Below, in pieces: positions 2-43,322 of a DNA stretch of 64,000 bases. The DNA comes from an uncultured Desulfuromonadales bacterium (GTDB taxonomy: Bacteria > Desulfobacterota > Desulfuromonadia > Geobacterales > CAIOGM01). The position numbers and the translations under genes are program-made. The stretch spans positions 1-64,000 of the forward strand of contig CAIYUY010000026.1 in the NCBI GenBank assembly GCA_903929485.1, given 5' to 3'. Position 1 is the stretch's first letter. Each line of letters begins with the position of its first letter. The notes under the pieces were generated by a model. It searched no databases. It had not been told where the DNA came from and saw nothing but the letters and a program-made list of their open reading frames with translations.

Positions 2-133
2 TACGTTCTACGTTCTACGTTCTACGTTCTACGTTCTACGTTCTACGTTCTACGTTCTACGTTCTACGTTCTACGTTCTACGTTCTACGTTCTACGTTCT
101 ACGTTCTACGTTCTACGTTCTACGTTCTACGTT
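2..133. repeat. Tandem heptanucleotide array (TACGTTC), 18 full units plus a partial unit; may extend left of the window
   Basis: Direct reading: uninterrupted tacgttc units from base 2 to 127, then tacgtt followed by gaaagg. Confidence 0.97.
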
Positions 134-147
134 GAAAGGCCAGTGCA

Positions 148-513
148 TCAGCCTTTTCTGTCGGTACTCCTGAGAAATCGGATAAAGCCGTTCAAAAGGT
201 TTATCAGTTTTGTACAGCGCCCAGATATGCACGTGAAGGTATCGCCATCAAAATAGCCGAGATCCATACCGGCATATGCATGACTCTTGACCTCGGACAC
301 CGATCCTCGCGCAATTACGAGAAACTGCACGAACTCCTTGTTGCTGGCCCGGTCAAACCCCTCAGCAATATTCGCCATTACTGATATCGCAGCCCTTTGT
401 ATCTGATCCCTGAAGCCAAAGTCTCGGCAGTTCTGAAGGGGGAGATAAACATCACGCACGAGCAGTCGTGCTTCCTTCCATGATTCAATGTCCTCAAACC
501 TCTCTATTTTCAA
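148..513 (-). CDS. Four-helix-bundle protein, S23 / 23S rRNA intervening-sequence family (about 121 aa)
   Basis: ORF 148..681 contains the family pattern 'KIERFEDIESWKEARLLVRDVY...FGFRDQIQRAAISVMANIAEGFDRASNKEFVQFLVIARGSVSEV'; likely TTG start at 513 with GGCGGAG upstream. Confidence 0.85.
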   Translation of the reverse strand: MKIERFEDIESWKEARLLVRDVYLPLQNCRDFGFRDQIQRAAISVMANIAEGFDRASNKEFVQFLVIARGSVSEVKSHAYAGMDLGYFDGDTFTCISGRCTKLINLLNGFIRFLRSTDRKG

Positions 514-529
514 AGCTCCGCCTCGTCTC

Positions 530-563
530 TTCAACGTAGAACATAGAACATAGAACGTAGAAC
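530..563. repeat. Short inverted heptamer array (GTAGAAC/ATAGAAC), complementary to bases 103-136
   Basis: ttcaacgtagaacatagaacatagaacgtagaac; reverse complement matches bases 103-136 except at two positions. Confidence 0.93.
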
Positions 564-19032: not shown

Positions 19033-19040
19033 ACCTTTTT

Positions 19041-19069
19041 ACCGCAAAGACGCAAAGGACGCAAAGAAA
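19041..19069. repeat. Short-period repeat ACCGCAAAGACGCAAAGGACGCAAAGAAA
   Basis: Three CGCAAAG units, intergenic. Confidence 0.7.
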
Positions 19070-19124
19070 CCCGGAGTAGAACTTAGGTAATTCACGACAA
19101 AGACGATCTGATGTTTCCGAAAGA

Positions 19125-19195
19125 TGTCATTCTGAGCGATAGCGAAGAATCTGCTTCTGTTTAAAAGCAGATCCTTCGCATTGCTCAGGATGACA
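19125..19195. repeat. Imperfect long palindrome (TGTCATTCTGAGCG...CAGGATGACA), REP/MITE-like
   Basis: Arms TGTCATTCTGAGCGATAGCGAAGAATCTGCTT / AAGCAGATCCTTCGCATTGCTCAGGATGACA around ctgtttaa. Confidence 0.85.
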
Positions 19196-19229
19196 GACGG
19201 TTCGTATATTTTTTATTGTGAATCAACTT

Positions 19230-19254
19230 AGAGCATAGAACGTAGAACGGCTCT
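19230..19254. repeat. Minimal heptamer element AGAGC-ATAGAACGTAGAAC-GGCTCT downstream of msbA
   Basis: Shares ATAGAAC/GTAGAAC units with 530-563 and 29565-29595. Confidence 0.7.
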
Positions 19255-22168: not shown

Positions 22169-22311
22169 GTAGGGGCGACGCATGCGTCGCCCGATATGTC
22201 GCCCGATATGTCGCCCGATATGTCGTCCGATATGTCGTCCGATATGTCGTCCGATATGTCGTCCGATATGTCGTCCGATACACGTAGGGGCGACGCATGC
22301 GTCGCCCCTAC
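22169..22311. repeat. 12-bp tandem array (GATATGTCGYCC x7, 22193-22276) bracketed by palindromes GTAGGGGCGACGCATGCGTCGCCC(CTAC)
   Basis: Units 1-2 end GCCC, units 3-7 end GTCC; flanks 22169-22192 (truncated) and 22284-22311 (complete 28 bp). Confidence 0.95.
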
Positions 22312-23123: not shown

Positions 23124-23132
23124 GTTTTCTCC

Positions 23133-27593: not shown

Positions 27594-28264
27594 CAGGATA
27601 CCCGCCCATCTTCCAGCTGAATGATCTTCCCCATGCCGGCGGCAAACCGCTCATTGTGCGTAACAATAATGAGAGTCAGACCAAGCTCGTCATGGAGTTG
27701 ACGGAGGAGATCATGAACCTCGTCGCTGCTTCTTCGGTCAAGATTGCCCGTGGGCTCATCGGCCAAAAGAAGCGCCGGGGAAAGAAAGAGCGCCCGGGCA
27801 ATGGCCACCCGTTGCTGCTCGCCGCCGGAAAGCTCCGTCGGTCGGTGGGTCAGGCGGTGCCCCAACCCAACTTTCCTGAGGAGCTCTTCCGCCATCGGCT
27901 CCAGCTCCCGCCGCTTCCGCCGGTTGATGAGCCCCGGCATCATAACGTTCTCCAGGGCGGTAAACTCCGGGAGGAGGTGATGAAACTGAAAAACGAAACC
28001 GATGGTCCGATTCCTGAAGGTTGCCAGGGCTGCTTCCCCCCTGGAAAATATTTCCTCATCCCGGAAGAGAAGCGTCCCCCCCGTGGGAAGATCCAGAGTC
28101 CCCATGATATGGAGGAGTGTCGTCTTCCCCGCCCCTGAGCTCCCCACCAAGGCGATGGTCTCCCCGGCGGCCACATTCATGGTGATCCCCTTGAGAACCT
28201 CCACCCTCCCCTGGCCGGCGCCATAGGATTTCCGGACGTCCCGGAGTTCCAGAAGGTTACTCAT
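27593..28264 (-). CDS. lolD: Lipoprotein-releasing ABC transporter ATP-binding protein LolD
   Basis: [58 protein letters not shown]. Confidence 0.9.
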
Positions 28265-29516
28265 AACGAAGCGCCTGTGCCGGCGGTAATCGGGAAGCCT
28301 GCCACGAAGGATACAGGGTCGCCAGAAAGGAGATAAGAATCGCCGTGATGGAGATAAGCGCCACATCTCCCGCTATCACCCGCGACGGGAAATGGTCAAG
28401 ATAATAGACATCCTTACTGAAAAACTGAAGGCCGGTGATGGTCTGGATGATGTTCACGATACTCTCCAGGTTCAGGGCAATGACCAGTCCCCCCAGAACA
28501 CCGAAGAACGTGCCGATGACGCCGACCACAACCCCTTCCAGCACAAAAATCTTCATGATGGATAACCCCGTCCCCCCCATGGACTTAAGGATGGCGATAT
28601 CCTTGCTCTTCTCCATCACCACCATAAAAAGGGTGGAGGCGATGCCGAAGGCCGCCACCAGGACGATGAGGGTCAGAATGATGAACATGACCATCTTCTC
28701 CGTCTTGAGGGCAAAGAGGATGTTCTTATTCATCTGCATCCAGTCCCGGGCATAATAAGGGTATCCCAGGGTCCGGTTAATCTCCTTGGAAATCAGCCCG
28801 GTCCCATAGACATCCGCAACCCTGAGTTGTATTCCGGTGACCGCGTCTCCCAGGGAAAGGAACGCCTGCGCTTCCCTTATCCCCACATAGGCCAGCGTCG
28901 AATCATATTCGAACATCCCCGTGTTGAAGAGACCCACCACCCGAAACGGTTTCATCTTGGGGATCATTCCCAGGGGGGTCAGGGTACCCAAGGGGGAGAT
29001 AACACTCACCTTATCTCCCACGGTCAGGTTCAGGTTCTTCGCCAGCTCCCTGCCGATGATGATACCCGGTTCGGCCCCCTTCACCGGTCCCGACGATTCC
29101 AGTCCCGCCAAGGTTCCTTCCACCAGGGATTTCTGAAAGTTTGTCACCTTGGCGTCGCTTTTGGGGTCCATCCCCCGCAAGACTACCCCGGAGACGTTTT
29201 TGCCGCTGGAAAGCATGACCTGGCTGTAGATGAACGGAGTCGCCGCCGTCACGCCGGGGATTCCACGCAACCGCGCCATGACTCCGGGATAATCTTCCAT
29301 GGTCCCGCTGCTCTTCAGAACGACGATATGAGCATTGGTTCCCAGAATCTTCTCCTTCAGATCCTCCTCGAACCCGGTCATCACCGCAAGAACGATGATA
29401 AGGGCCATGACCCCCAACGCCACACCCGAGGTGGAGATAAAGGTAATGATGGAGATAAAGGCGGATCTTTTCTTGGCCCGCAAGTAGCGCAAGGCGACGA
29501 ACAGCTCGTAGGTCAT
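28257..29516 (-). CDS. Lipoprotein-releasing ABC transporter permease (LolC/LolE)
   Basis: [47 protein letters not shown]. Confidence 0.92.
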
Positions 29517-29529
29517 ATGTTTATAAACT

Positions 29530-29595
29530 GTTCTAGGTTCTAGGTTCTAGGTTCTAGGTTATGAAACGTAGAACGCAGAACGTAGAACATAGAAC
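29530..29595. repeat. Inverted heptamer arrays (GTTCTAG)4 / (GTAGAAC-type)4 with a very short spacer and no gene inside
   Basis: gttctaggttctaggttctaggttctaggtt-atga-aacgtagaacgcagaacgtagaacatagaac. Confidence 0.9.
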
Positions 29596-29601
29596 CGTTC
29601 C

Positions 29602-31080
29602 TTACCTCGTTTCCTTCCTGAGCTGCGGGAAGAGGATGACGTCGCGAATGGAGGGAGAATTGGTGAAAAGCATGACCAAACGGTCAATGCCGATCCCCTC
29701 GCCGGCGGTGGGGGGCATGCCATACTCCAACGCCCGGATATAATCCTCATCCATGTAGTGAGCTTCTTCATCCCCCTTTTCTTTCAGGGAAACCTGGGCG
29801 AGAAACCGCTCCTTCTGGTCAACCGGGTCGTTCAGCTCCGAAAAGGCGTTGGCCAGTTCACGCCCAGCGATGTACAGCTCGAACCGGTCCACGATCTCCG
29901 GGTCGTCGTCGTTTTTCCGCGACAGGGGAGAGACCTCGGTGGGATAGGCGGTGATGAAGGTGGGCTGAATCAGCTTCGTCTCCGCCACCTCCTCGAAGAT
30001 CTCCATGAGCAGCCTGCCGTAGCTGATCTTTTCGGGGAGTTCCAGGCCGATCTTTTGGGCGTAGGCATATGCCAGATCCCGATCCTCCAGGCTTTTGCGA
30101 TCGATGGCGCCATACTCAACCACCGCTTCCTTCACGGTGAGCCGTTTCCAGGGGCGCTGAAAACTTATGTTCTCACCCTGACAGGTGAAATCCAGGCTCC
30201 CCAGGAGTTCCTGGGCCACATGACAAAGGAGCTCCTCCGTATACGTTATGAGATCTTCATAAGTGGCATAAGCCCGGTAGAACTCCATCATGGTGAATTC
30301 GGGATTATGCCGAATGGAGATCCCTTCATTCCGGAAGTTACGATTGATCTCGAAGACCCGCTCGAACCCACCCACCACCAGCCGCTTGAGATACAATTCA
30401 GGGGCGATGCGCAGGTAAAGGTCCATGTCCAGGGCGTTGTGATGGGTGACGAAGGGGCGGGCAGTGGCGCCGCCGGGGATCTGCTGCATCATGGGGGTCT
30501 CGACTTCCAAAAAGTCGTTTTTCACCATGAAGTCACGGATAAGGGTGATGATCCGGGAACGCTTCAAAAAGACGTCGCGGGATTCCGGGTTGACGATGAG
30601 ATCAACATATCGCTGGCGGTAGCGGGTCTCCACGTCGGTAAGCCCATGAAATTTTTCGGGAAGGGGCTGAAAGGACTTGGTCAGGAGCCGGATGGTCGTC
30701 ACATGAAGGGACAGTTCACCGGTCTTGGTCCGAAAAGGCCACCCCTGGGCGCCGACAATATCCCCCAGGTCGAAGGTCTCGAAGCAGGCAAAGACCTCTT
30801 CTCCCACCACGTCCTTCTTCACGTACAGCTGTATCCGCCCCTTGCGATCCTGAAGCTGAATGAAGGCGGCCTTGCCGAAGGAGCGGCGAGCCATGATCCT
30901 GCCGGCAACCACGAAGGTCTCGGCATTTTCCGGTATGTCAGCACTCTCGCCATAGGCGGCCGCAAGATCCGCGGATGTCTGTCGGGGGGTAAAATCATTG
31001 GGATAGGGGTTAATCCCTTCTTCCCACATTTTGTTCACCTTACGGCGGCGTTGCAACGTCAGTTCATGTAGTTCTTCCAT
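29602..31080 (-). CDS. lysS: Lysyl-tRNA synthetase (class II)
   Basis: [71 protein letters not shown]. Confidence 0.96.
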
Positions 31081-32504: not shown

Positions 32505-32544
32505 TGTGCACGGGTTCATGGTGCGCACCGAAACCCGTGCGCAC
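32505..32544. other. Hairpin TGTGCACGGGTT...AACCCGTGCGCAC
   Basis: Inverted repeat with internal palindrome GGTGCGCACC, downstream of the decayed TPR gene. Confidence 0.45.
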
Positions 32545-32571
32545 CCTTCGGAGTCCAAGACCGTTGCATAT

Positions 32572-43209: not shown

Positions 43210-43293
43210 GAACATCTCCAAGGCCGGAATGTTTGCTCTTTATATCACAGGTTACCGGGTGCCGCAACCGAGAAACAGGGATCGAGACTCTGC

Positions 43294-43322
43294 GTTCTAC
43301 GTTCTAGGTTCTACGTTCGAAC
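43294..43322. repeat. Heptamer element GTTCTACGTTCTAGGTTCTACGTTCGAAC
   Basis: Direct reading; contains both the GTTCTAC and GTTCTAG unit variants. Confidence 0.85.

Follow-up and report, generated by a model that had tools for sequence, protein, structure and literature searches.

This work indicates that the 66 bases between lysS and a lolC-like permease gene (29530-29595), in the stretch of 64,000 nucleotides analysed here (the window), probably constitute a cargo-less, non-autonomous repeat copy, served by a lineage-specific four-helix-bundle (4HB) protein that recognizes its heptamer in a manner resembling that of RAYT with REPINs. In the autonomous form, a 4HB gene (PF05635/S23p) would occupy the loop between arms of about four tandem heptamers each around a GTT...AAC core. 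PF05635/S23p is the protein family of the 23S-rRNA intervening sequences (IVSs), and we know of no function for it. The proposal is built on direct observations of the anatomy of the element, its potential to form a hairpin, the family-wide association of 4HB genes with facing heptamers, the co-variation of heptamer and 4HB lineage, the agreement of dispersed arrays with the resident 4HB genes, and the occupancy of orthologous sites with replacement of the units.

The earlier note on this DNA had described four GTTCTAG units facing four GTAGAAC-type units across a few bases, with six of the seven positions pairing in each unit, and both descriptions are borne out (Table 1). On the plus strand the second-arm units (29568-29595) read GTAGAAC, GCAGAAC, GTAGAAC and ATAGAAC, and the predicted RNA stem extends over 28-31 bp with one mismatch per heptamer. 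The fold predicted for the lysS-lolC transcript strand reaches -33.4 kcal/mol versus -12.5 +/- 2.5 for shuffles (z -8.25), and a stable hairpin is predicted on either strand of the element. The site does lie, as had been said, within a run of same-strand genes, both neighbours being encoded on the minus strand, and among named organisms the closest relatives of lolC belong to Geobacteraceae. The likeness to the layout around the 4HB gene, without cargo, was also rightly seen, as the arms match the 4HB-flanking arrays and a short core takes the place filled by the 4HB gene in full elements. What had been called a possible empty site is not a vacant target, however, since the element is cargo-less and the vacant state is a 0-9 bp gene junction in other species. 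A known RNA family was ruled out for the element, as no Rfam match was found anywhere in the window.

Table 1. Heptamer arrays of the window with the genes and junctions beside them
Feature	Positions	Strand	Details
Left array of cargo-bearing element	5..133	+	18 x GTTCTAC + GTT; reaches contig start
4HB domain, cargo of full-length element	187..495	-	PF05635, TIGR02436; GTTCTAC-heptamer element
Right array of cargo-bearing element	533..563	-	AAC + 4 facing heptamers
Short array, kdtA-msbA gap	19229..19250	-	GTTCTA type; other heptamer types in same gap of three congeners
fabZ-lpxA junction (Site B)	23124..23132		TAAGGAGAAAACATG; without element; facing heptamer pairs exactly here in three congeners
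lolC-like (LolC/MacB-FtsX-type) permease gene, downstream neighbour	28257..29516	-	Pfam PF12704/PF02687
First arm	29530..29557	+	4 tandem GTTCTAG heptamers
Core/loop	29558..29567		GTT-ATGA-AAC = GTTATGAAAC; partial fifth unit each side
Second arm	29568..29595	-	4 heptamers facing first arm; minus-strand reading GTTCTAT GTTCTAC GTTCTGC GTTCTAC
lysS, upstream neighbour	29602..31080	-	Pfam PF00152/PF01336; part of same-strand gene run
Single array, nadC to solute-binding protein gene	43291..43319	+	GTTCTAC GTTCTAG GTTCTAC

The window starts at a contig end of a draft genome of 369 contigs, and the 4HB at its beginning is likely the cognate protein of the GTTCTAC heptamer type. Within the window a 14-mer occurs 27 times at up to two mismatches, versus 0.18 expected, and a three-unit pattern has 309 matches in the 5.36-Mb genome versus 0 for a reversed-pattern control. 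About 14 short, tight facing pairs were found genome-wide, and the arrays range from 3 to over 20 units, with the triplet after GTTC mostly TAC, TAG or TAT.

Repeats of other kinds were also observed in the window. The kdtA-msbA gap holds a dispersed repeat (19126-19231, CATTCTGAGCGATAGCGAAGAATCT...) whose second half is inverted and which has many congener copies. A tandem ACCGCAAAGACGCAAAGGACGCAAAG of period 8-9 (19035-19072), multicopy in the congener G003 too, may represent a comparable family built on a different period. In the gap separating lpxA from the next gene, a 12-bp repeat GTCGTCCGATAT is present in eight tandem copies (22186-22280), flanked on both sides by an inverted GATACACGTAGGGGCGACGCATGCGTCGCCC motif, and a short palindromic repeat GGTTCATGGTGCGCACC...GTGCGCACCC (32505-32550) has copies elsewhere in congeners at 87-94% identity.

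The facing layout is widespread among 4HB genes. In a set of 110 PF05635 loci with intact flanks, drawn from the best-scoring matches in Desulfobacterota, heptamers face each other within 400 bp of the gene at 67, versus 1 of 1000 random positions, and the period is specifically seven, as 68 of the 110 loci score at period 7 versus 0-4 at periods 5, 6, 8, 9 and 10. A strict facing pair is absent at about 40% of these genes, and at two loci (L195, L207) the arrays on the two sides of the 4HB gene have the same orientation. Facing heptamers were also found at 11 of 15 plasmid 4HBs, nearly all cyanobacterial, and at 13 of 23 4HBs on viral contigs. Several plasmid 4HB genes are placed between genes of a single operon, and three on cyanobacterial plasmids (L310, L313, L315) are inserted between cas genes (cas6-cas4, cas10-cmr3).

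The heptamer proved specific to the 4HB lineage. Between different families, 4HB protein identity correlated with heptamer similarity at a Mantel r of 0.247, the maximum of 2000 permutations being 0.115, and addition of the cyanobacterial and viral loci gave 0.217 (permutation maximum 0.097). Pairs of 4HBs of at least 60% identity share 5.5 of 7 heptamer positions versus about 3.6 in less related pairs. In these comparisons the heptamers could rotate freely, so that more matches are expected by chance, to the same extent for all pairs. GTCAGRA-type heptamers are common to two cyanobacterial 4HBs (L316, L317) and the Desulfobacterota 4HBs with which these show 75-81% identity. The right arrays are 77% alike in related 4HB pairs versus 52% in unrelated ones, whereas the DNA between gene and array (47% versus 43%) and that beyond the array (45% versus 42%) hardly differs (n = 58, the pairs being mutually non-independent). 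Because the flanking DNA has diverged as co-inheritance alone would allow, it is the array, and not its surroundings, that is maintained with the protein.

The same correspondence is seen inside genomes. Six PF05635 genes over the cut-off reside in this genome, all flanked on either side by heptamer arrays (four under the strict criterion and two, with interrupted or distant arrays, by eye), and each has a different heptamer: GAGCGGC, GGGGACT, GATGAAG, GTTCTAC, GTTGAAT and GTGAAGG. Among the non-GTTCTA arrays in about 260 kb of the genome, mostly contigs picked for GTTCTA pairs (the other counts for this genome being pattern searches), 20 of 37 match one of the other five resident types at six or more of seven positions, a rule that places GTGAATG-like arrays with the GTGAAGG 4HB; random five-type sets match 8.5 +/- 2.4 and 0 of 2000 as many. 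For several orphan types (GTTCRAG, GGGACCG), none of the six resident 4HBs is an exact cognate. Among 28 relatives of the order, GTTCNNN arrays occur in all 7 genomes with a GTTC-clade 4HB versus 8 of 21 others (Fisher p 0.007, Mann-Whitney p 7e-5), and GTCAG arrays in 5 of 8 genomes with a GTCAG-clade 4HB versus 20 of 140 without (p 0.004), p-values that are optimistic because the compared genomes are related and the statistics ignore phylogeny. The GTTCNNN arrays of those 8 genomes without the clade speak against strict coupling, and strict GTCAG arrays are missing in 3 of the 8 genomes with the GTCAG clade. The variable triplet follows the 4HB flank in G016, where all arrays are GTTCGAG as is the flank; it is mostly GAT or GAG in G024 and mostly AAG or AAC in G007.

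We propose that each 4HB lineage would be tied to one heptamer type, which it would recognize as DNA or as an RNA hairpin, and that this recognition would maintain and spread its own arrays and the cargo-less copies, as RAYT does REPINs. That related 4HB versions keep the same heptamer suggests, on comparison of sequences, that the protein reads the repeat, and 4HB is probably a nucleic-acid-binding protein. We infer that it binds its own heptamer array and that the 4HB system drives the spread of arrays, with a chemistry that is likewise putative. The cutting and joining would have to be done by a host or other enzyme, because 4HB has, to our knowledge, no catalytic or enzymatic activity, and transcript processing may be of the RNase III type, by analogy with the rRNA IVSs.

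The strongest competing explanation, which we nevertheless regard as unlikely, is that IVS-like hairpin insertions are spread by an unrelated enzyme, and that the 4HB gene is a passenger tolerated in the loop and co-inherited, inactive on the arrays. The absence of a known enzymatic activity would fit such a passenger, as would the fact that cargo-less copies far outnumber 4HB-carrying ones. The S23p of Coxiella, moreover, is apparently not produced in vivo, and the ORF encoding it is in decay (PMC4990558). A passenger, however, would hardly keep the arrays of related 4HBs alike while the DNA on either side diverged to background, nor give six heptamer types to the six 4HBs of one genome and agreement between these and the dispersed arrays.

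Orthologous gaps reveal how the arrays change. At the lysS-lolC gap, 3-4 congeners share the two-armed design with different heptamers (GTTCAAG/GTTCAGG in G001 and G002, GGGACCG/GGGATTG in G003), and in more distantly related Geobacteraceae the arms are of the GGGACC or the GTGAAAA type. The earlier note had named an identical sequence at this locus, with no variation and no homologous sites elsewhere, as evidence that would speak against its view; this is not what was found, because the site of the relatives holds other heptamers and the genome has hundreds of matching units. On the lolC tree, 61 of 82 rows are without an element at the gap and the occupied rows are clustered; a single event at the site was rejected, as there are 13 changes over five states and a GGGA-type genome is nested within the GTTC group. 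Heptamers also differ among congeners in the kdtA-msbA gap and in the 43.3-kb gap between nadC and the solute-binding protein gene (other types in G002 and G003). Because the type changes fall within strongly supported clades, the units change either by in-place replacement or by repeated insertion into the same small gap; neither an insertion nor an excision nor a duplicated target was observed, the flanks of Site B being too diverged for a duplication to be read. Some 4.9 kb downstream of the lolC start, another gap, probably ompH-lpxD, likewise holds heptamer types that differ among Geobacteraceae, with arrays at 8.84-9.16 kb in seven loci (L054, L055, L063, L075, L080, L098, L123) and none in this window.

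These sites also bear on the idea that the host selects the element as an RNA hairpin, that is, a processing or stabilising stem in the lysS-lol-bam-lpx run, such as an RNase III site or an attenuator. The stable fold predicted on both strands, the clustering of occupied relatives on the lolC tree and the likeness of the arms at the site, 0.73 within species versus 0.56 between species, are in its favour. Yet most lolC relatives do without the element, Site B lacks one here but has one in congeners, and hundreds of matching units stand beside unrelated genes. This genome also has two clear mixed-type facing pairs with a GTGAA-type arm against a GTTC-type or GGGACC arm (L188:11384-11467, L190:13975-14036), which are unable to pair because their two arms are of different heptamer types; further such pairs were noticed by eye (L186:14956-15026, L189:5769-5820). 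Strict conservation of pairing between the arms was rejected on this ground, the likeness of arms within species notwithstanding, and the mixed-type pairs are likewise the reason why selection on the hairpin alone was not taken as the explanation; we hold selection of the hairpin by the host to be quite improbable.

The mixed-type pairs hint at change arm by arm. A more specific version of the 4HB proposal, which we find possible and hold with low confidence, is a new kind of repeat-protein system in which small non-enzymatic 4HB oligomers each specify one heptamer and arrays at fixed sites take on, one arm at a time, the type of the resident 4HB, which would account for an occupied site with GTGAAAA, GGGACCG and GTTCTAG types as well as for the mixed-type pairs. 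The only solved 4HB relative found by sequence, XCC0516 of Xanthomonas campestris (2GSC), is a toroidal homopentamer (PMC4990558).

That the arrays are plain heptanucleotide microsatellites, produced by polymerase slippage with the arms homogenised by quasi-palindrome template switching, is very improbable. The unit number is indeed variable, and heptameric repeats are over-represented in many bacteria (PMC4692102), but slippage would lead one to expect neither the facing layout around 4HB genes, nor the arm-core-arm plan at orthologous sites, nor heptamers that follow the 4HB lineage from one phylum to another. That the elements are true REPINs, mobilised by a Y1/RAYT transposase, is scarcely credible and was rejected, for although the genome has five Y1_Tnp (PF01797) matches, no GTTC-type array stands at the four of these loci that were examined, where a single short array of an unrelated type was seen, and the units are not palindromic REPs and their arrays are attached to 4HB genes.

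The heptamer arrays and the S23p/IVS system are each known separately, and no report of their pairing as protein and repeat was found in the open-access literature searched, the heptamers of the Coxiella IVS being the nearest exception, nor any of a GTTCTAG-type heptamer. Piecemeal reports of such arrays from Geobacter, Xanthomonas, cyanobacteria and Beggiatoa go back years and name no agent. The present evidence ties them to the 4HB family, in which a protein lineage is accompanied across phyla by a seven-base word that it seems to dictate. The pairing offers a direct test of S23p function and a possible origin for the rRNA intervening sequences, and the hundreds of natural protein-heptamer pairs perhaps amount to a readable recognition code.

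REPIN/RAYT systems consist of short inverted paired repeats dispersed between genes and a single-copy gene flanked by the repeat, in lineage-specific types. The heptamer elements resemble them as inverted pairs in intergenic gaps, with many dispersed copies, a repeat-flanked gene and lineage-specific types. They differ in that their arms are tandem heptamers, with no palindromic unit within an arm, whereas REPIN arms are palindromic REPs; in that the linked gene encodes a small 4HB protein and not a Y1 transposase, no RAYT flanked by the repeat having been found at the four Y1_Tnp loci; and in that several gene-repeat pairs coexist in this one genome. The suggestion of the earlier note that the element is a basic REPIN-like unit is thus right as an analogy, because the element is one of many such units, and wrong if a REPIN proper is meant.

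With the 23S rRNA IVSs the elements share a long stem of terminal inverted repeats whose loop contains a PF05635 ORF, as in the other copy of the window, or a short ORF-less stem, as in the lysS-lolC copy; the latter, like the other elements examined, is located between protein genes and not in rRNA, and the array units number hundreds per genome. The Coxiella 23S IVS has a 28-bp stem with tandem GACAGAT heptamers beside the S23p ORF and is excised by RNase III (PMC4990558), because of which the rRNA IVSs are, by analogy, likely relatives of the heptamer elements. Published heptamer arrays include GGGACCG x4 at 49 sites of Geobacter metallireducens, read as regulatory (PMC2700814), GGGAATC arrays of mostly 4 units with 70-75 convergent pairs in Xanthomonas, and arrays in Nostoc too (PMC4692102), and TAACTGA arrays in Beggiatoaceae (PMC4679880). 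Related species mostly have them in the gap between the same two genes, and regulatory or G-quadruplex roles were proposed for them or the function was left open (PMC2700814, PMC4692102, PMC4679880, as far as accessible). The arrays described here share with those of Geobacter, Xanthomonas and Beggiatoaceae, and with heptameric SSRs in general, the tandem 7-nt units, mostly about four, dispersed and often in convergent pairs, and differ in their cognate 4HB gene, which the accessible parts of those papers do not link to the repeats. The heptamer element behaves like a REPIN yet is not one, and resembles an IVS yet stands outside rRNA.
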